A program made the translations under genes and the position numbers. Below, piece by piece: positions 10,348-20,383 of a stretch of 64,000 bases of DNA (the first letter of the stretch is position 1; each line of letters opens with the position of its first letter). The DNA comes from Empedobacter tilapiae (lineage in GTDB: Bacteria; Bacteroidota; Bacteroidia; Flavobacteriales; Weeksellaceae). The notes below the pieces were generated by a model. The model saw only the letters and a list, made by a program, of their open reading frames with translations. It searched no databases and was not told where the DNA came from. The DNA is taken from the NCBI RefSeq assembly GCF_004785645.1, contig NZ_SRPE01000001.1, forward strand, positions 186,001 through 250,000, read 5' to 3'.

Positions 10348-13300
10348 ATGGAAAATTTCCCCATCCCCGCGAACGAAAAGCAAAGATTGCAAGCTGTTTA
10401 CGATTATAATTTGCAAGCACATGACAAAGACGAAGAGTTAGAGGTATTTGCAAATGCTGCGAGTTTAATTTGTAATGCACCAATTGCCTTGGTTTCTGTT
10501 TTTGATGAAAATTATCAAGTAATTAAGGCAAATTGCGGGATTGAGGTAGATATTGTTCCGCGTCAACAAACGATTTGTCAATTTTCTTTAATGGAAGAAG
10601 AAATTTTGGTGATTGATGATGTAACGAAATTTGGACCTGCAAAAAATATTGTTGGAGTAAAAGCTGCAAATATTCAGTTTTACGCTGGTGTTCCCTTGAT
10701 TGATGACAATGGAAATGTATTGGGAACTTTGTGTGTAAACGATCATTATCCAAGAACCTTGGATGAAAAACAACGAAATTTATTGATTCAACTTGGGAAA
10801 AATATCACAAAACTATTAGTCAGTAAAAAACGAAAAAAAGACGCCACTTACTTTCAAAATATTTACAAAATATCGAATAACTTGATTGGAGTTGCTGATA
10901 TTAATGGTATTTTAAGATCTATAAACCCTGCTTTCAAAGAAGTTTTGGAGATAAAAAAAGAATCTCACATTGTGGAGAAAAGTTTTGTAGATTTTGTCTC
11001 TGAAAAAGATAAGAACAAAGTGCAAACATTTTTATCTGACTTAAAAAATAATTCAGGTTCTATACATTTCAAATGTTTAATGTCTTCTATTGAATCAAAA
11101 GAAGAAAAGTTAGTGGAATGGTACACAAAATCAAATTTAAAAATTGACAACGAAATCTTCCTCTTTGGGCGAGATATTACACTTGAAAATTCGAAGAAAA
11201 TAGAATTAGAAAATAGCGAACGTAAGTTTAGAAATTTCTTCAATTCTTCACTTGGTTTGATGACTATTCATGATTTGGATGGAAATATTTTGTCAATAAA
11301 TAAGACAGGATTAGAATCTATGGGCTATTCGAAAGAAGAAGCAAAAGATTTGAATCTAAAAAAGTTGATTCCAAAACCTAATCATAAAGAATATCAAAAA
11401 TATATCGAAACGATTTCTAACAAGAAGCAAGATTCTGGTTTAATGAGTTTAATAAAAAAAGATGGTTCATTAACATATTGGTTGTACAGCAATATTTTAG
11501 ACAAAGATAACGAAGGAAATCCTGTTGTAATGAGTACTGCTGTAGATATGACACAAAGAACTTTGTTGGAAAGAGATCTAAATCGTGTTCGTCAGTTGCT
11601 AGATCATACGTACGAAGTTGCGAATGTAGGAGGTTGGAAATATGATTTAGTTAAGCAAAAATTAATTTGGGCTGATATAACGAAAAAAATCCATGAAGTT
11701 GAACCAGATTATGAACCAAATGTAGAAAATGCACTTAATTTTTACGAAGCAAAAAATAGTTATCCAAAAATAAAGAAAGCCTTTAAAGATGCGGTAGAAA
11801 AAGGAATCGAATATGATATGGAATTGCAGATTGTTACCCAAAAAGGAAAAACAATTTGGGTAAGATGTAAAGGAATTCCAGAATTCTTAAATGAAGAATG
11901 TGTTAGCGTTTTTGGAATTTTTCAGGATATTAATGAGAGGAAACGTTATACTTTAGAGTTGACAAGACAAAAAGCCATTTTCGAAACGTTTATTAATCAC
12001 GTACCTGCTTCTGTTGCAATGTTTGATAATGAAATGAATTATCTAACATTAAGTAATCAATGGTGTGATGAATTTGCAATAAAAAAGAAAAATATTATTG
12101 GAAAATCTCATTACGAAATGTACAATGTTCCAGCAGAAAGGAAAGCGATTTATGAGGCTTGTTTGCAAGGCGAAAATTATTCGAATGAAGATACTATTTA
12201 TCGCACACCAAAATATGATACGGATCAACACTATTCGTGGGCGATTCATCCTTGGTATATCAATAAAAAACAGATTGGTGGTCTAATTATGTTTTCGCAA
12301 AATATAACAGAATCTGTCAAGAAAAATAAAGAACTTAAAAAAGCCAAAAAGAATGCTGATATTGCTAGTAAAGCAAAGTCTGAGTTTTTAGCCAATATGA
12401 GTCACGAGATTCGTACGCCGTTAAATGGTGTGATTGGTTTCTCTGATTTATTGTTGAAAACGCCACTTAATCCAACTCAAAAACAATATTTGAATTACAT
12501 TAATGATTCTGCAAATTCATTATTGTCGATTATCAATGATATTTTAGATTTTTCCAAAATTGAATCAGGTCGAATGGATGTTTCGATAGATAAAAATAAT
12601 TTGTTCGAATTAGGAAATCAAGTAATCAATGTGATTCTTTATCAAGCCGAAAACAAAAAAATAGAATTGTTATTGAATATAGATAATAATTTACCACAAT
12701 TTATTTGGATTGATGAAGCGCGATTGAAACAAGTGTTAATCAATTTACTTGGAAACGCCGTGAAATTCACAGATAGTGGAGAAATAGAACTTAAAATTTG
12801 TCAAGTTGAACCAATTATAAAAGGTGAAAAAGCAAAATTGAGATTCTCTGTGCGTGATACTGGAATTGGAATAAAAGCAGAAAAACAATCCAAAATTTTC
12901 GATGCATTTACACAAGAAGATAGTACTATTAGTAAGCGTTTCGGCGGAACAGGTTTAGGTTTAACAATTTCGAATAAGTTGCTAAATTATTTCGGAAGTC
13001 ATCTAGAATTACATAGCGAAATAGATAAAGGTTCTACATTTTTCTTTGATTTAGAAGTTGATTACGAATACAATATTAAGAAACAATTTGATCATTTGGA
13101 CGAAATAAATCATGTGTTAATTGTGGATGATAATCAAAGCAATCAAATGATTTTGCAGCATATGTTGCAGTTCAAAAATATAACATCTGATATTGCGAAC
13201 AATGGAATGGAGGCTCTTCAGAAAGTTTTGAATGGCGATGTTTACGATGTTATTTTGATGGATTATCATATGCCAGTTTTGAATGGTTTGGAAACAATTC

Positions 13301-14271
13301 AGAAGATAAAAGAGTATTTCGTAACCAAGGACACAAAAACTCCTTTAGTGTTATTGCATAGTTCTTCTGAGGATGAATTTTTGATTCAGAAAGCAATAGA
13401 ATTGGGAATTACTTCGCGTTTGTTGAAACCAATTAAGTCAGAAGAATTGTTTGATACGCTGCGTAAAACAATTATTGATTCGAAAGAAATTCAAATCGTA
13501 GAAATTGAAAATAATGAAGAAATTTCGCAAGATTTTTCGAAACAATTTCACATTTTAATTGCAGATGATAATTTAGTAAATATGGCTTTAAATCAACAAA
13601 TCATCAAAAATGTTGCGCCAAATTCTATTTTATATACAGCTGCAAATGGTGTGGAGGCAGTGTCGATTTGTCAAGAAAACAAGGTCGATTTAATCTTGAT
13701 GGATATTCAAATGCCGGAAATGAATGGTATTGAAGCAACTAAGCTTATTCGTTTATTAAACAATTTTCAAGAAACTCCGATTATAGCAGTGACAGCGGGA
13801 AATGTAAAAGGCGAAAAGGAAAAATGTCTTGATGCTGGATTGAATGATTTCTTAGCAAAACCAATTCGAGAAAAAGATATTTTTGGTGTCCTAGAAAAAT
13901 GGCTAGACTTTTCTCAAAATGAAAAAATTGAAACCAACGATTTTGGAAATCACCTTGATCTTTCGATGATAAATAATTATACGAAAGATGACGAATCGTT
14001 TAGAAAAACGTTTATTAAAATAATTATTAATGAGTTAGAAAAATCTATACTAGAATTTGAAACTTATTCCAACAAACAAAATTTAGAAGAATTAAATCAA
14101 TTAGGTCATAAAGTAAAAGGAACAGCAAAAACGGCTGGACTTACAATTTTGGCTGATTTGACCGAACAAATAGAAAAATCAACTTCAATCAATTACCTAC
14201 AAGAAAACCAACTGATTATTAAAGCAAAAACCGAAATAGAATTAGTTATTAATTATTTAAAAAAAATTTAG
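10348..14271 (+). CDS. Hybrid sensor histidine kinase: GAF, PAS repeats, HisKA, HATPase, two REC, Hpt
   Basis: A 1307-residue phosphorelay protein without obvious membrane segments, so probably cytoplasmic. Order: GAF (about 15-155), four PAS-type domains (about 165-280, 290-405, 410-530, 540-660), HisKA with H686 in MSHEIRTP, HATPase with the N-box INLLGNAVKF (about 800), DTGIGI and GGTGLGL, then REC1 with D972 in LMDYHMP, REC2 with D1119 in LMDIQMP, and a C-terminal Hpt with H1254 in LGHKVKGTAKTAGL. All phosphorelay residues look intact. The chain can end on the separate response regulator 11 bases downstream. The ligand is not predictable. It opens a plus-strand gene run to the glycosyltransferase fusion. 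Confidence 0.93.
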   Translation: MENFPIPANEKQRLQAVYDYNLQAHDKDEELEVFANAASLICNAPIALVSVFDENYQVIKANCGIEVDIVPRQQTICQFSLMEEEILVIDDVTKFGPAKNIVGVKAANIQFYAGVPLIDDNGNVLGTLCVNDHYPRTLDEKQRNLLIQLGKNITKLLVSKKRKKDATYFQNIYKISNNLIGVADINGILRSINPAFKEVLEIKKESHIVEKSFVDFVSEKDKNKVQTFLSDLKNNSGSIHFKCLMSSIESKEEKLVEWYTKSNLKIDNEIFLFGRDITLENSKKIELENSERKFRNFFNSSLGLMTIHDLDGNILSINKTGLESMGYSKEEAKDLNLKKLIPKPNHKEYQKYIETISNKKQDSGLMSLIKKDGSLTYWLYSNILDKDNEGNPVVMSTAVDMTQRTLLERDLNRVRQLLDHTYEVANVGGWKYDLVKQKLIWADITKKIHEVEPDYEPNVENALNFYEAKNSYPKIKKAFKDAVEKGIEYDMELQIVTQKGKTIWVRCKGIPEFLNEECVSVFGIFQDINERKRYTLELTRQKAIFETFINHVPASVAMFDNEMNYLTLSNQWCDEFAIKKKNIIGKSHYEMYNVPAERKAIYEACLQGENYSNEDTIYRTPKYDTDQHYSWAIHPWYINKKQIGGLIMFSQNITESVKKNKELKKAKKNADIASKAKSEFLANMSHEIRTPLNGVIGFSDLLLKTPLNPTQKQYLNYINDSANSLLSIINDILDFSKIESGRMDVSIDKNNLFELGNQVINVILYQAENKKIELLLNIDNNLPQFIWIDEARLKQVLINLLGNAVKFTDSGEIELKICQVEPIIKGEKAKLRFSVRDTGIGIKAEKQSKIFDAFTQEDSTISKRFGGTGLGLTISNKLLNYFGSHLELHSEIDKGSTFFFDLEVDYEYNIKKQFDHLDEINHVLIVDDNQSNQMILQHMLQFKNITSDIANNGMEALQKVLNGDVYDVILMDYHMPVLNGLETIQKIKEYFVTKDTKTPLVLLHSSSEDEFLIQKAIELGITSRLLKPIKSEELFDTLRKTIIDSKEIQIVEIENNEEISQDFSKQFHILIADDNLVNMALNQQIIKNVAPNSILYTAANGVEAVSICQENKVDLILMDIQMPEMNGIEATKLIRLLNNFQETPIIAVTAGNVKGEKEKCLDAGLNDFLAKPIREKDIFGVLEKWLDFSQNEKIETNDFGNHLDLSMINNYTKDDESFRKTFIKIIINELEKSILEFETYSNKQNLEELNQLGHKVKGTAKTAGLTILADLTEQIEKSTSINYLQENQLIIKAKTEIELVINYLKKI

Positions 14272-14282
14272 AAACCAATATT

Positions 14283-14639
14283 ATGCAAATTTTAATTGCC
14301 GAAGACGATGAATTGATTTTAAAAACAATTGAGCACAAACTCAAAAAAGAAGGTTACGAAGTTGTTTTAACACGAAATGGAAAAGAAGCAATCAGTAAGA
14401 TTGAGACTGAAGATATTGATTTGATTATTACCGATATTATGATGCCTTTTGCGTCTGGTTTGGAGATTATTAGTGCTGTTAGAAAAAGTAAAAATCCTGA
14501 AACACCAATGATTATTTTGTCTTCTTTAGGGCAAGAAGATGTGGTGGTGGAAGCATTTAATTTGGGTGCAAATGATTTTATGGTGAAACCATTTAGTCCT
14601 ATTGAATTGTCTGTTCGTGTGAAGAAATTACTAAAATAA
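14283..14639 (+). CDS. Single-domain response regulator
   Basis: A 118-residue stand-alone receiver domain with no output domain. It has the acidic pocket E7-D8-D9, the phospho-acceptor D51 in IITDIMMP, the Thr/Ser position in IILSSLG and Lys in MVKPFSP. It follows the hybrid kinase by 11 bases and precedes the HEAT gene by 4. Such receivers act by protein-protein contact, so the HEAT-repeat neighbour or the synthase is a reasonable partner by inference. Confidence 0.92.
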   Translation: MQILIAEDDELILKTIEHKLKKEGYEVVLTRNGKEAISKIETEDIDLIITDIMMPFASGLEIISAVRKSKNPETPMIILSSLGQEDVVVEAFNLGANDFMVKPFSPIELSVRVKKLLK

Positions 14640-14643
14640 AAGC

Positions 14644-15708
14644 ATGATTATCCTACAAATTATAACCTATACCGAGTTAATCGTAGGAATTTATATTCTA
14701 CTTATTTTACTTTTTTTGACAATTATTTATACGTTATTGACAAGTATAATTGAATATAAAATTATTACAAAGAAAAATAAGTGGAATGCTATTATTGATC
14801 AAGAAATTTATGAGACAATTTTGGATGATCAATCCAATTCGAATACTGATTTTAAGGATTATTTGAAATCAAGTTCATTCAAACATTATTTTATCAAAAA
14901 ATTACTAAAAGCGGAACAAAATTTTTCTGGAAATTCAAAAGAGAGTATCCAAAATTTATTTGACTATTATCAATTAAAAAAAGTATCCTTACAGAAATTA
15001 AATAGTCAAAAAAAACATGAAATTGCTGAAGCAATACAGGAAGTTACGGCTATGAATTATGTTGAAACTTTACCAAAAATCAAAAGTATGTTACAACATA
15101 AAAATGATTTAGTACGATCTGAAGCGCAATATGGTTTAGCAAAATTTTCTGGTTTCGAAGGTTTATTTTTTTTGGATAATTTACAGGAACAATTGACGGA
15201 TTGGCAACAGTTGAAGTTGTTGGATGCAATTACAATTTTACCGAATAATGATGAGGTTGATATCATAATTTCGAATTGGTTAAAATCACCTAATCAAAGT
15301 GTGAAAATTCTTGCAATGAAATTAATTCGCAAGTTTCAATTGTTGCAAATGCACGATTTAGTCGCAGATAATTTGTTTGATCCTGATGAAAAAGTTGTGG
15401 AAGAAACAATTAAAACATTAGTCAGAATCGAAGATGATTCAACTTCAAAACTATTGATTGAACAATATCAAACGTGTAACGAAAAGTTTCAAATTCAAAT
15501 TTTAAAAGCCTTAGATAAAATTTCTAATCCAGAAAATAACACATTTTTAGAAACTCAAGCAAAGGAAAATCCTTCATTTTCTGTCAAAAAAGCAAGTGTA
15601 AAAGCGTTAAATAATTGTTATTCAAAAACCGATTTACAAAAACTTGCACATCAATCAAACTCTCCTGAATTAAAACAAATTATTAATCAAATTATCCAAG
15701 AAAACTAA
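14644..15708 (+). CDS. Membrane-anchored HEAT-repeat protein
   Basis: The 354-residue protein has one N-terminal membrane segment (about residues 8-35), a charged linker and then alpha-solenoid repeats from about 115 to the end. Units of the form NDLVRSEAQYGLAKF, NQSVKILAMKLIRKF, DEKVVEETIKTLVRI and SFSVKKASVKALNNC have HEAT/PBS-lyase character. HEAT proteins usually act as scaffolds; no enzyme motif is visible. It sits between the response regulator (4-base gap) and the glycosyltransferase fusion (2-base gap), so it is almost certainly cotranscribed and perhaps the link between signalling and synthesis. Confidence 0.85.
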   Translation: MIILQIITYTELIVGIYILLILLFLTIIYTLLTSIIEYKIITKKNKWNAIIDQEIYETILDDQSNSNTDFKDYLKSSSFKHYFIKKLLKAEQNFSGNSKESIQNLFDYYQLKKVSLQKLNSQKKHEIAEAIQEVTAMNYVETLPKIKSMLQHKNDLVRSEAQYGLAKFSGFEGLFFLDNLQEQLTDWQQLKLLDAITILPNNDEVDIIISNWLKSPNQSVKILAMKLIRKFQLLQMHDLVADNLFDPDEKVVEETIKTLVRIEDDSTSKLLIEQYQTCNEKFQIQILKALDKISNPENNTFLETQAKENPSFSVKKASVKALNNCYSKTDLQKLAHQSNSPELKQIINQIIQEN

Positions 15709-15710
15709 TC

Positions 15711-18700
15711 ATGAATTGGCTAGAAACGGCTTTCGATTTTTTTATTTACGGCTTCCTTTTTTATTCAATCCTATTAATTTTAGTCTATGGATGGATAGGT
15801 TTTTATGCAAAAGGTGCAATAAAATCTTATATCCGAAAAAACAGTTTTACGGATTATTCGCTTATTGCAACATCGCCAAATGCGCCAACTTTTAGTCTTA
15901 TTGCGCCCGCTTATAACGAAGGTGCAACGATTGTGGAGAACGTGCGTTCTTTGTTGTCGTTGTATTACAATCAACTCGAAATTATTATTGTAAATGATGG
16001 TTCCAAAGATGATTCGTTGCAACGATTAATTGAAGCGTATGATTTGATTAAAATTGATTATTTCGTTGAAGGAAATATCGAAACGAAACCAATTAATGCG
16101 ATTTATAAAAGTACAAATCCTGTTTTCAAAAAATTAATTATTGTTGACAAAGTAAATGGAGGAAAATCGGATGCGTTAAATGTCGGAATTAATATTGCAA
16201 CAAACGATTATATTGTTTGTATTGATGTCGATTGTATTTTAGAACAAGATGCGATTCTGAAGCTTGCAAAACCGTTTATGGATGAAGCAAAAGCAAAAGT
16301 AATTGCATGTGGAGGAGTTATTCGTTTGGCGAATAATTGTACCATTGTTGACGGAAAAGTTGTTGATGTTAATTTGCCAAAAACACGTTTAGGAAGAGCG
16401 CAAGCGTTAGAATATATTCGAGCATTTCTTTTGGGAAGAATGGCGTGGTCGCGCGCCAATGGTTTGATGCTGATTTCGGGTGCTTTTGGTGCTTTTGATC
16501 GTGAAATTGTACTCAAGTGTGGCGGTTACGATCACGATACAGTTGGTGAAGATATGGAGCTTGTTGTGCGAATGAGACGCTATATGCACAAACAAAAATT
16601 AGCCTATAAAGTGGTTAATATTCCCGATCCGCTTTGTTGGACAGAAGTGCCAGAAAGTAAAGAAATTTTAACCAAACAGCGTAATCGTTGGATGCGTGGA
16701 ACGATAGAAACATTGTGGAAACATCGTATTTTATTTTTCAATCCGAAATATGGAAAACTTGGAATGATAAGTTATCCGTATTGGTTTTTCTTCGAATTTT
16801 TAGGACCAATTATCGAATATATTGGTTGGATCATTTTCGTTGTTTTATTCTTTTTAGGATTAATTAATTGGCATATTTTCTTTCCTTTAATGGCTTTTGT
16901 ATTGCTTTATGGAGTTTTATATTCGATTTATGCAATTCTGATTGATTTGATGACGTATAACGTTTATCACAAAAAGGGCGATATTCCGAAATTATTTTTA
17001 ACTGCGTTTATAGAGCCTTTTACATTTCATCCGCTAGTTGTGTTGTCAGGTGTAAAAGGTGTGAAGGATTTCTTTCTAAAAAATAATTCGTGGGGAGAAA
17101 TGACGCGACAAGGTTTTGGAGGAAATCAAGCAAAAGAACTATCTATTTGGCAAAAATTGAAACTTGGATTCATTAATTTAGTTCAACAAACTACGTTTAT
17201 TTCGTTGGTTTATTTGTTACTTTTTGGATTGTCAACAATTCTTGAATTTTATCTTTATCAAGAAAATTTGACGCTGCATTCTAATCAAACACTATTTTTT
17301 GATTTATTTGCGCATAATATCGATTTTGTTTTAGATAGTATTTTTGTGGTAAGTTTTATATATTTTTTACTGCAATTTTATTCAATAAGTTGGGCAAAAA
17401 AATGGATCATTTTTGTGTATTCTTTTTTAATTATTTCAAATATTTTATTGATTAAATATTTTCAAACAACACTCAATTTATTAGGTTCAGATTTGTTTTC
17501 TTATACGTTCGAAGAATTGAAGTTAATTATTGGCGCATCAGGCGTTGTAAATGCGATAAATATTGTATTGTCAATCGTTGCAATTGCTATTTTAATAACG
17601 ATATTTATTTACAGTTATCGATTAAAAATCAATCAAAAAATTATTCAATTACCATTAATAATTTTGAGTTTTTTATCGCTTATTATTCCAATTAATTTAT
17701 ATTTGAAAAGTACTCAAAATGATGAGTTTTCATCTAATCTAATTTTGAGTAAGTCGTCTTACTTTTTCTCAAATTCGATTGAACAATATGCAGAAGATAA
17801 ACTTTCGGAAATTGACTTTTTTAATTCAAATTCGAATTCAAATAATGAAGATAATCGACATTATTTTGACAAAACCAATTATCAATTTTTATATCAAGAT
17901 CAGAACAAAAATTTCTTCGCGGATCAATTTAATCTAACAACAGAAAAACCGAATGTTGTTTTTATTGTGATTGAAGGTTTGGGACGAGCTTTTAGTAACG
18001 AAGGTGCATATTTAGGTTCTTTTACACCATATATCGATCAGCTTTCGAAAAAGAGTTTGTATTGGGAAAATGGATTAAGCACGACAGGAAGAACATATGG
18101 AGTTTTACCTGGATTGACGGGTTCTTTGCCATTTGCTGAAAATGGTTTTATGGAACAAAAAAACTTACCTCAACATTTCAATTTGTATAATTTGTTAAAA
18201 AGTAATGGTTATAAAACTGGTTATTTTTACGGTGGTGATGCTGATTTTGATTTTATGTCGAAATACTTGAATTATTCGGGTGTTGAAACAATTATTGATG
18301 AAAATGATTACGAAAATAATTATGCTAAAATTCCGTCAAATAATGGATTTTCTTGGGGATTTGACGATCATTCAGTATTAAAAAAATATTTAGCAACGCA
18401 AAAAGAAAATAATCAACCGTATTTTAATGTTTTGATGACGTTAGCGACGCATAGTCCTTTCTTAATAAACAATGTTGAGAAATATAATAAGCAGTTTGAA
18501 ACGTTGATTAAATCACGAAATTATGATGCGTCGACTTTGACGACAGTAAAAAAATACAAACAACAATTGGTTACTTTTTTGAGTGTTGATGAAGCTGTAA
18601 AAAACTTTTTCGAAGCTTATCAAAAACGTTCAGATTTTAATCAAACTATTTTTGTTATTACTGGAGATCATCGAATGCCTGAAGTTCCGATGGAAACAAA

Positions 18701-19139
18701 GATTGATCGTTTTCATGTTCCGATTATTGTCTATTCTCCTTTGTTGAAAACACCAAAAAAGATGTCAAATATTGTGACGCATTTTGATGTTGCGCCAACT
18801 TTTGTGACATATTTTAGAGATTCGTATAAACTGAAATTACCGAATTACGTGACTTGGATGGGACAGAATTTAGAAAATGGTAAAGCGAATTACCGAAAAC
18901 AAGGCGTTCCGTTAATGCAAAATAAAAACATTTTGGATGATTATGTTTTCCAGAATTATCATTTGTCTGGAGGGAAATTATATCGAATCGAAAAGAATTT
19001 AACCGAAGATGTTGAACAAAATTCGAAAATGGAAACAGAGTTGAAAAATCGATTAAAAAGCTTTAAAACAAAAAACCATTCTTTGAAAAATACTCAAAAA
19101 ATGGTTCCTGATTCTATATTTAATCGTTATATCAATTAG
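15711..19139 (+). CDS. Glycosyltransferase family 2 fused to LTA-synthase-type phosphotransferase
   Basis: The 1142 residues hold two enzymes. Part one resembles processive GT2 synthases (PgaC/NodC type): a membrane segment (about 8-30), LIAPAYNEGATI near 63, NDGSKDD near 96, IDVDC with D172/D174, catalytic GEDMEL with D281, QRNRW at 323-327, and several helices at about 355-430. Part two has the LtaS layout: five hydrophobic segments starting near 495, 536, 563, 611 and 643, then an extracytoplasmic sulfatase-fold domain. There VIEGLG (E755), GRTYG (T795, position of the LtaS nucleophile) and GDHR (D986, H987) supply metal and nucleophile residues. It may polymerise a glycan and add a lipid-derived phospho-group. 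The stop overlaps that of the convergent yaiO-like gene. Confidence 0.85.
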   Translation: MNWLETAFDFFIYGFLFYSILLILVYGWIGFYAKGAIKSYIRKNSFTDYSLIATSPNAPTFSLIAPAYNEGATIVENVRSLLSLYYNQLEIIIVNDGSKDDSLQRLIEAYDLIKIDYFVEGNIETKPINAIYKSTNPVFKKLIIVDKVNGGKSDALNVGINIATNDYIVCIDVDCILEQDAILKLAKPFMDEAKAKVIACGGVIRLANNCTIVDGKVVDVNLPKTRLGRAQALEYIRAFLLGRMAWSRANGLMLISGAFGAFDREIVLKCGGYDHDTVGEDMELVVRMRRYMHKQKLAYKVVNIPDPLCWTEVPESKEILTKQRNRWMRGTIETLWKHRILFFNPKYGKLGMISYPYWFFFEFLGPIIEYIGWIIFVVLFFLGLINWHIFFPLMAFVLLYGVLYSIYAILIDLMTYNVYHKKGDIPKLFLTAFIEPFTFHPLVVLSGVKGVKDFFLKNNSWGEMTRQGFGGNQAKELSIWQKLKLGFINLVQQTTFISLVYLLLFGLSTILEFYLYQENLTLHSNQTLFFDLFAHNIDFVLDSIFVVSFIYFLLQFYSISWAKKWIIFVYSFLIISNILLIKYFQTTLNLLGSDLFSYTFEELKLIIGASGVVNAINIVLSIVAIAILITIFIYSYRLKINQKIIQLPLIILSFLSLIIPINLYLKSTQNDEFSSNLILSKSSYFFSNSIEQYAEDKLSEIDFFNSNSNSNNEDNRHYFDKTNYQFLYQDQNKNFFADQFNLTTEKPNVVFIVIEGLGRAFSNEGAYLGSFTPYIDQLSKKSLYWENGLSTTGRTYGVLPGLTGSLPFAENGFMEQKNLPQHFNLYNLLKSNGYKTGYFYGGDADFDFMSKYLNYSGVETIIDENDYENNYAKIPSNNGFSWGFDDHSVLKKYLATQKENNQPYFNVLMTLATHSPFLINNVEKYNKQFETLIKSRNYDASTLTTVKKYKQQLVTFLSVDEAVKNFFEAYQKRSDFNQTIFVITGDHRMPEVPMETKIDRFHVPIIVYSPLLKTPKKMSNIVTHFDVAPTFVTYFRDSYKLKLPNYVTWMGQNLENGKANYRKQGVPLMQNKNILDDYVFQNYHLSGGKLYRIEKNLTEDVEQNSKMETELKNRLKSFKTKNHSLKNTQKMVPDSIFNRYIN

Positions 19140-20383
19140 AATTTTCGACTGTACGAAACGCTTACATCAAATTGATTTCCTTTTTGATTTGGACGATATT
19201 CTTGATTGTAATAATTCGTACCAATTGAAATTAAGTTTAAATCATTGATCGAAAAATTATAATCTGCTCCAATTTTGAAGGATTTCAGTTTGTAAGTTGT
19301 ATCTTCTAAAAGATTGTTGTTAAAATCTTCAGGCGAAATACCTGTACCAATAGCTAAGCTTAAATAATTGTTTGCATCACCCGTATAATAACGCATTGTA
19401 AATGTATACGAATGCGAAATATTGTTGTTACTTGGCGTTACAAATGCACGTAAATTGAACCAATAATTTTTATAATATTTCCCAATTGATCCTGTAAACA
19501 TCCAAACATCATCCGAAAAATGAAGTTGACGATAACCTAACTCGGCTTCAAAACTTTTAGGTAAATTAGCGTAAAGAGATGCTCCTGTGCGATATTTAGG
19601 GAAAATTCCATCACTATCCGAATATCCACCGCCAACGTACATGTAAAATGTATTAGAAAGTCTTGGATAAGCTTCTACTTCGTATTGAGCACCGTTATCT
19701 TTAAACTTGTTTGCGTAATTTACTTTAAAGATCAATGAACCAATCGAAGTTTGTCTTTTATAACTAACCGAAACTTGATGCCAATCATCTGTAAATTGTT
19801 TGTCAAAATGTGAGTAATTGTAATTAACACCAATTGCGTTTTTAGTATTATTGATTTCTATTCGATTTGCTAATTCTCTCGCTTCCGTATTTTTAGGATT
19901 GATCGCTAATAATTCTTTGATTGTTTTTGAAGCTTCTTCATAAGCATTGTTCGAATTAAGAACTTTAGCTTTCAATAACAATAATTCTTCATTTTTAGGA
20001 TATTTAATTAATCCACGATCAATAATAGAAACGGCTTCTGTATAATTATCATTCCAATATTCAAGTGATGTATAAGCTAAATAGAAATCGGTAGAAGTAT
20101 CCATGTTTTTTTCAACATTCTGAAAAACTTTTCTGGCTTCTTCGTTTTCATCATTCCACGTATATATTCGTCCCAAAAAGACAGCAATATCTGTATATTC
20201 TGGCGATTGATATAAAGCTTGTAATGCAAGTTTCTTGGCAGTTGTATAATCTTTTTCTTCGAAAGCTTTGTGACGCGCTTCTTGAAATAAATCATCCGAA
20301 CTTTTCGATTCTTGGCTATACGAAAATAAAGGTAAAAAGGTAAGAGTAAAGAGTGTCTTTCTTAGAAATGATTTTTTAATCAT
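19136..20383 (-). CDS. YaiO-family outer-membrane TPR / beta-barrel protein
   Basis: The 415-residue protein begins with a signal peptide (FLRKTLFTLTFLPLFSYSQ), has about four TPR units (about 30-165; for example DYTTAKKLALQALYQSPEY and NYTEAVSIIDRGLIKYPKN) and then a region of alternating aromatic strands ending in VSYSRKF, as expected for an outer-membrane barrel. The order periplasmic TPR then barrel recalls PgaA and BcsC, which export polysaccharides, though this barrel is smaller. It is tail to tail with the GT2-LtaS fusion, overlapping by a few bases. E. coli yaiO likewise lies near a GT2 gene (yaiP). An export role is inferred. Confidence 0.8.
   Translation of the reverse strand: MIKKSFLRKTLFTLTFLPLFSYSQESKSSDDLFQEARHKAFEEKDYTTAKKLALQALYQSPEYTDIAVFLGRIYTWNDENEEARKVFQNVEKNMDTSTDFYLAYTSLEYWNDNYTEAVSIIDRGLIKYPKNEELLLLKAKVLNSNNAYEEASKTIKELLAINPKNTEARELANRIEINNTKNAIGVNYNYSHFDKQFTDDWHQVSVSYKRQTSIGSLIFKVNYANKFKDNGAQYEVEAYPRLSNTFYMYVGGGYSDSDGIFPKYRTGASLYANLPKSFEAELGYRQLHFSDDVWMFTGSIGKYYKNYWFNLRAFVTPSNNNISHSYTFTMRYYTGDANNYLSLAIGTGISPEDFNNNLLEDTTYKLKSFKIGADYNFSINDLNLISIGTNYYNQEYRPNQKGNQFDVSVSYSRKF

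Follow-up and report, generated by a model that had tools for sequence, protein, structure and literature searches.

A predicted glycan synthase joined to a probable LtaS-fold headgroup transferase in Empedobacter tilapiae and other Bacteroidota

In Empedobacter tilapiae, one long reading frame begins as a GT2 glycan synthase and ends as a membrane-anchored sulfatase-fold module of LtaS type. Does this frame encode a genuine two-enzyme polypeptide, and if so, what would the synthase make and which lipid would supply the group that the second half transfers? The stretch analysed, referred to here as the window, comprises 64,000 nucleotides of contig NZ_SRPE01000001.1 (positions 186,001 to 250,000), and feature coordinates are those of the window.

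The fused reading frame and its split relatives

15711..19139, forward strand: GT2 synthase fused to an LtaS-fold headgroup transferase (1142 amino acids, ATG start, stop codon at 19137-19139)

An earlier note on this DNA had described one polypeptide containing a GT2 and a sulfatase fold. Its coordinates proved exact, and Pfam places both domains in the same frame, PF13641 (GT2) at residues 59-330 (2.8e-20) and PF00884 (Sulfatase) at residues 747-1034 (8.1e-32); the residues that it had named, E755, T795, D986 and H987, also occupy exactly those positions in the translation. The full frame is open in three genomes of the same genus (G003, G010 and G013, at 87-96% identity) and is likewise present in E. 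stercoris, and a competing long frame on the reverse strand at 15711-19139 was absent in the register examined. The full-length AlphaFold model of the 1142-residue protein has a mean pLDDT of 85.7, whereas a model of the C-terminal half alone, built with 21 alignment rows, was poorer (74.9).

The architecture, which had been proposed for a domain search, recurs in 88 related Bacteroidota loci (the window's included), where an uninterrupted frame with GT2 and LtaS-like parts was found in 39, a separate LtaS-like frame in 29 and no transferase in 20, the last figure referring to the available DNA of each locus in a set that is biased, having been gathered with query peptides. Where the LtaS-like frame is separate, it lies immediately downstream of the GT2 gene in 28 of 29 cases, the two frames being separated or overlapping by no more than approximately 60 bases, and upstream in one (L108). 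A stop near codons 470-490 in relatives had been named in advance as a sign that two genes were falsely joined; two adjacent frames do occur, in those 28 loci, but as a natural variant beside which the fused form is equally real. An assembly artefact or a read-through of two genes is ruled out by the many independent single-frame loci (39/88). Among 296 species sampled evenly across the phylum, a strong GT2 match was observed in 71 species and an uninterrupted fusion in at least nine.

Mapping the fusion onto the GT2 tree takes 10 changes of state, at least seven of which are forced by well supported branches, while the eight rows of the window's clade, all from its own family, are fused throughout. 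Judged from this tree, fusion or fission has occurred repeatedly, as is expected for two proteins that work together. The distances between GT2 halves and those between LtaS-like halves correlate at r 0.87, a value not reached in any of 999 permutations and to which shared species history contributes part. The protein is a single chain whose folds are modelled at good confidence and whose active sites and linkage are conserved. The covalently joined form is one of two arrangements in which this conserved operon occurs, and not a one-off event.

Several individual loci depart from the common pattern. One genome (G205) apparently holds two copies of the GT2-LtaS fusion (C2:1031050-1034511 and C3:389328-392855). 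In a same-genus genome (G009), GT2 residues 1-222, approximately 97% identical, run in frame into an EmrB/DHA2-type MFS-like transporter (L018:46-2169) and the upstream HEAT gene is split into two frames, which suggests that this copy has been rearranged or has decayed, or that the assembly joined unrelated pieces. The cassette in a record titled Beijerinckiaceae (L101) falls among the Bacteroidota sequences in the GT2 tree, and the record is probably mislabelled or a mixed bin. In two Flavobacterium loci (L070:9414-11774 and L074:7435-9792), the separate LtaS-like protein has C-terminal TPRs, those of L070 weakly matching the PgaA porin model.

The synthase half and the surrounding cassette

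15885..16700, forward strand: cytosolic GT2 catalytic domain, residues 59-330 (Pfam PF13641 and column counts)
16743..16955, forward strand: two membrane helices behind the GT2 domain, residues 345-381 and 387-415 (AlphaFold model, hydropathy)
10348..14271, forward strand: hybrid histidine kinase with GAF, PAS, HisKA, HATPase, two receivers and Hpt (Pfam), candidate phosphodonor
14283..14639, forward strand: stand-alone receiver (response-regulator) of 118 amino acids (translation)
14644..15708, forward strand: HEAT-repeat protein with an N-terminal hydrophobic helix (Pfam HEAT_2), directly upstream of GT2
19136..20383, reverse strand: TPR and YaiO-family outer-membrane beta-barrel (PF19413, 3e-73), candidate polymer exporter

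The N-terminal half has the features of the processive GT2 superfamily, namely the D, DxD, D and QxxRW motifs (D96, D172-x-D174, D281 and Q323-xx-R326-W327, invariant in 52 of 52 aligned rows) and, in the model, helices after the glycosyltransferase domain, the two membrane helices being followed by interfacial helices at 424-455. Among family models, it scores highest with TIGR03111 and PgaC/IcaA, in both cases far short of the cut-off; the PgaC/IcaA synthase model TIGR03937 gives 110.8 bits against a cut-off of 422.3, and a split relative reaches 140 bits. The nearest long structural match is the Chlorella virus hyaluronan synthase, over approximately 470 columns, and an archaeal membrane mannosyltransferase (6yv7) is also a good match (Z 26.4).

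With so few membrane helices, the GT2 half could be non-processive. This feature and the mannosyltransferase match favour an alternative in which the GT2 makes a glycolipid or a short lipid-linked glycan, to which the LtaS-fold half adds a phospholipid head group as LtaP or EptA would, and no long polymer is formed; LtaP, the lipoteichoic acid primase, is also among the closest folds of the second half (Z 34.0). Such a role is considered unlikely, however, as QxxRW and DxD are invariant, the hyaluronan synthase matches nearly the whole GT2 half, and a lipid-bound product has no obvious need for the TPR outer-membrane barrel in the cassette.

The neighbouring genes suggest an exopolysaccharide synthase with a candidate exporter and possible control proteins. 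They were counted across the related loci, several of the missing cases being contig ends. A HEAT gene lies directly upstream of GT2 in 77 of the 77 loci with enough upstream DNA, including those where the transferase is absent. In 65 of 74 loci, a receiver homologue lies no more than 2.4 kb upstream, and several of the other nine have one beside YaiO; the kinase occupies the expected position in 22 of 66. YaiO is present somewhere in the locus in 62 of 80 cases, and in the window the TPR-YaiO gene is convergent with the fusion gene, overlaps it by four bases and scores 215.6 bits with TIGR04390 (cut-off 32). From this gene order, the membrane-anchored HEAT protein and the usual receiver may possibly act as a phosphorelay switch of the glycan synthase. 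The HEAT and receiver genes are kept in loci that lack the transferase, so that receiver, HEAT and GT2 make up the constant core and the transferase is an optional addition to it. Because approximately 20 loci keep GT2, HEAT and receiver with no transferase in the available DNA, decoration would be dispensable for synthesis.

A conserved protein of 386 residues with an N-terminal hydrophobic helix lies near the transferase in 37 of 67 transferase loci (for example, L037:11484-12644, reverse strand), in many cases with the LtaS-like gene on one side and YaiO on the other. It was found in only one of the 20 loci scored as transferase-less (L079), where a contig end cuts a transferase start. Searches of Pfam, NCBIfam and PDB sequences gave no match for this protein, and it has no match in the window genome.

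The transferase half and its probable lipid donor

17145..17714, forward strand: five-helix membrane module, residues 479-668 (AlphaFold model, hydropathy)
17943..18815, forward strand: LtaS/alkaline-phosphatase-fold catalytic domain, residues ~745-1035 (PF00884, structure comparison)
17973-17975, forward strand: E755, catalytic domain
18093-18095, forward strand: T795, catalytic domain
18450-18452, forward strand: H914, catalytic domain
18666-18671, forward strand: D986-H987, catalytic domain
18714-18716, forward strand: H1002, catalytic domain

Five hydrophobic segments had been claimed ahead of the sulfatase fold, and five are indeed given both by hydropathy (approximately 487-516, 532-562, 563-585, 603-640 and 640-668) and by AlphaFold (479-519, 528-555, 559-587, 615-637 and 642-658), the model adding two short helices (593-597 and 600-610) between the third and the fourth. 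As one helix precedes the GT2 domain and two follow it, with interfacial helices and then these five thereafter, helix parity places the GT2 domain on the cytosolic side of the membrane and the transferase domain in the periplasm. With this orientation, the half has the organization of LtaS, five helices and then an extracytoplasmic alkaline-phosphatase-fold domain, and its T795, E755, D986 and H987 align with the catalytic Thr and the metal ligands Glu, Asp and His of LtaS. In 61 of 61 rows, E755, T795, W882, D886, H914, D986, H987 and R1000 are conserved, and H1002 is present in 59.

Structure prediction, which the earlier note had proposed as a check, bears out an LtaS-like fold (Z 33-37), and the residues of the E755/D986/H987 site are kept in all 61 rows. 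The closest fold is VP1736 (Z 37.0, rmsd 3.1, 376 aligned residues), followed by Listeria LtaS (Z 34.3), LtaP and S. aureus LtaS (Z 33.5); among folds whose solved structure includes a membrane part, YejM (Z 29.7) comes nearest. Sulfatases (Z 24-28) fall below LtaS and VP1736, and MCR-1 and EptC rank lower. GacH, an alkaline-phosphatase-fold enzyme that decorates the streptococcal group A carbohydrate with the phospholipid head group phosphoglycerol, is a more distant fold (Z 21.1) and, unlike the fused transferase, a separate protein. Among the Pfam and NCBIfam matches listed for the fusion protein, there is no curated EptA or BcsG model.

The segment HGDYKTFWNRD of S. aureus LtaS contains the glycerophosphate-binding residues W354 and R356. 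In the profile alignment, it corresponds to YGGDAxFDxM, so that the tryptophan is matched by D847, present in 61 of 61 rows, and the arginine by methionine. The LtaS model NF053595 gives 20 bits against a cut-off of 970, and separate-frame relatives reach 34-49 bits. The earlier label of an LtaS-type module can therefore be retained for the fold and the catalytic core. It does not extend to the way the substrate is recognised, W354/R356 not being kept, nor to membership of the curated LtaS family. In view of the pocket residues and the model score, a true LTA synthase was rejected.

The proximity of the LtaS and LtaP folds, together with the retained catalytic T, E, D and H and the H416-equivalent of LtaS, could still suggest a phosphoglycerol transferase or polymerase that uses PG. 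This is improbable, given the altered pocket and the low LtaS score and given the lipid genes. A PgsA above the profile cut-off, by which absence is defined here, was found neither in the window genome nor in any of 40 genomes that carry the GT2 cassette. G003, G010 and G013, which are complete, belong to the same genus and encode the fusion, have a single CDP-alcohol phosphotransferase, which is PssA-like, and a PS decarboxylase; 11 further genomes in which the two parts are fused or adjacent also have one CDP-alcohol phosphotransferase in total, the search having been positive in 14 of 14 reference genomes as a control. PS decarboxylase is present in 15 of 15 genomes tested and in the window genome. 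These gene contents suggest that PG is probably lacking in bacteria with the fusion.

In the window genome, two CDP-alcohol phosphotransferases were detected, one of which has PssA as its best match (89 bits, cut-off 107). The second (L144:1372-1977, contig C22) is located near putative acetyltransferase and reductase genes and was not matched in the nearest relative, G003. Its presence counts against the donor argument drawn from lipid genes.

PE dominates the polar lipids reported for the family (PMC10370774). In view of the active site, the single PssA-like enzyme with Psd, the missing PgsA and these lipids, the donor is probably PE and not PG, and the decoration likely to be phosphoethanolamine, although a sphingolipid or aminophospholipid may serve instead. 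Where the earlier note had left both donor and product open, the genomes with PssA-like enzyme and Psd only would narrow the donor to PE.

The C-terminal half might alternatively be a hydrolase, with sulfatase or phosphatase activity used to trim the polymer or some other glycan, as the fold is common among polysaccharide sulfatases (Z 24-28). The C/S-x-P-x-R motif is the sulfatase maturation signature; it is lacking at the nucleophile, T795 instead sitting in TTGRTYG, which rules out a formylglycine sulfatase (S1). As LtaS and VP1736 also score well above sulfatases and a five-helix membrane anchor is typical of headgroup transferases, hydrolysis of any kind is very doubtful. Least probable is a half that has ceased to transfer and acts as a lipid sensor or as a regulator of the synthase, a role of the kind proposed for YejM, the nearest fold with a solved membrane part, for the retention of E755, T795, H914, D986 and H987 in 61 of 61 rows is hard to explain without catalysis.

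Known systems and a proposed coupling of synthesis to decoration

In the phosphoethanolamine cellulose system of E. coli, BcsA, a processive GT2 synthase, is physically coupled to BcsG, a five-helix alkaline-phosphatase-fold transferase, and export uses a TPR outer-membrane barrel (PMC11379886, PMC11470070); for the fusion, such an arrangement is read from genes and a model. The N-terminal domain of BcsA holds three BcsG per BcsA beside the nascent cellulose (PMC11379886, PMC11470070), whereas the fusion is one chain with a 1:1 ratio; it has no visible BcsB-like or PilZ part and is associated instead with a receiver and a HEAT protein. The nucleophile is Ser278 in BcsG and Thr795 in the fusion, but the modelled layout is that of BcsG, with five helices and interface helices between the third and fourth (PMC11379886).

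LtaS and LtaP resemble the second half in their five membrane helices, extracellular domain (Z 33-34) and catalytic T/E/D/H, and differ in their glycerophosphate pocket, whose residues the fusion does not keep, in the curated model and in the lipid setting, PG being probably absent here; LtaS also has no joined glycosyltransferase. VP1736 of Vibrio parahaemolyticus (3LXQ) shares with the fusion the replacement of the LtaS pocket by YGG(D/E)AxFDxM, although its solved chain has no GT2. On the synthase side, PgaC/IcaA and E. coli YaiP are of the same GT2 class and have a TPR or YaiO-type outer-membrane partner. The fusion nevertheless stays far from PgaC (110.8 against 422) and its cassette has no deacetylase. 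The E. coli cluster yaiO-yaiX-yaiP-yaiS is analogous, YaiP being 24.8% identical to the GT2 over 290 amino acids, but YaiX is a broken acyltransferase and not a headgroup transferase.

A literature search, conducted mostly without subscription papers, returned nothing direct on a GT2-sulfatase/LtaS fusion, a HEAT-receiver-GT2 operon, a YaiO cassette or a phosphoethanolamine polysaccharide of Bacteroidota, and the GT2-LtaS system is untreated in the lipocone paper (PMC12419801). While each of the parts is of a known kind, their covalent joining, its repeated gain or loss and the receiver-HEAT-GT2-YaiO setting are undescribed in the literature searched.

On the catalytic residues, topology, gene linkage and BcsA-BcsG analogy, a coupling of elongation to decoration outside the membrane by GT2 and LtaS-like halves appears to be the best-supported reading. 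Specifically, the locus is proposed, with a probability of roughly 0.55, to encode an exopolysaccharide synthase under two-component control that has its own phospholipid-headgroup transferase built in, a PE-donated decoration and export via YaiO. The cytosolic GT2, as its fold and motifs suggest, would polymerise a PgaC- or HAS-like polysaccharide from a nucleotide sugar and move the chain across the membrane. The five-helix LtaS-fold module would take a phospholipid head group onto T795 at the E755/D986/H987 metal site and then hand this group to the chain as it emerges at the periplasmic face of the membrane; with PE as the most likely donor, judging from the active site and the lipid genes, the group would be phosphoethanolamine. 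The polymer may exit through the TPR-YaiO barrel, and the kinase, receiver and membrane-anchored HEAT protein, as their gene order suggests, probably switch the synthase on, as c-di-GMP does for cellulose synthase. Such a machine would work like BcsA with BcsG, as one chain in some lineages and as adjacent genes in others.

More tentatively, and at less than even odds, Bacteroidota may own a phosphoethanolamine-exopolysaccharide machine that operates without cellulose or c-di-GMP, with a REC-HEAT-controlled GT2, a transferase repeatedly fused and split, a 1:1 enzyme and a YaiO barrel. The coupling of cellulose synthesis to phosphoethanolamine transfer in E. coli has only recently been viewed by cryo-EM, and the transferase's route to the chain is still open. 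In a natural single-chain version, stoichiometry and geometry are fixed, and such a protein should purify more easily. The reading also predicts a glycan synthase for which a phosphorelay and a HEAT protein act as the switch, and an unrecognised surface polymer bearing head groups across a wide part of Bacteroidota.
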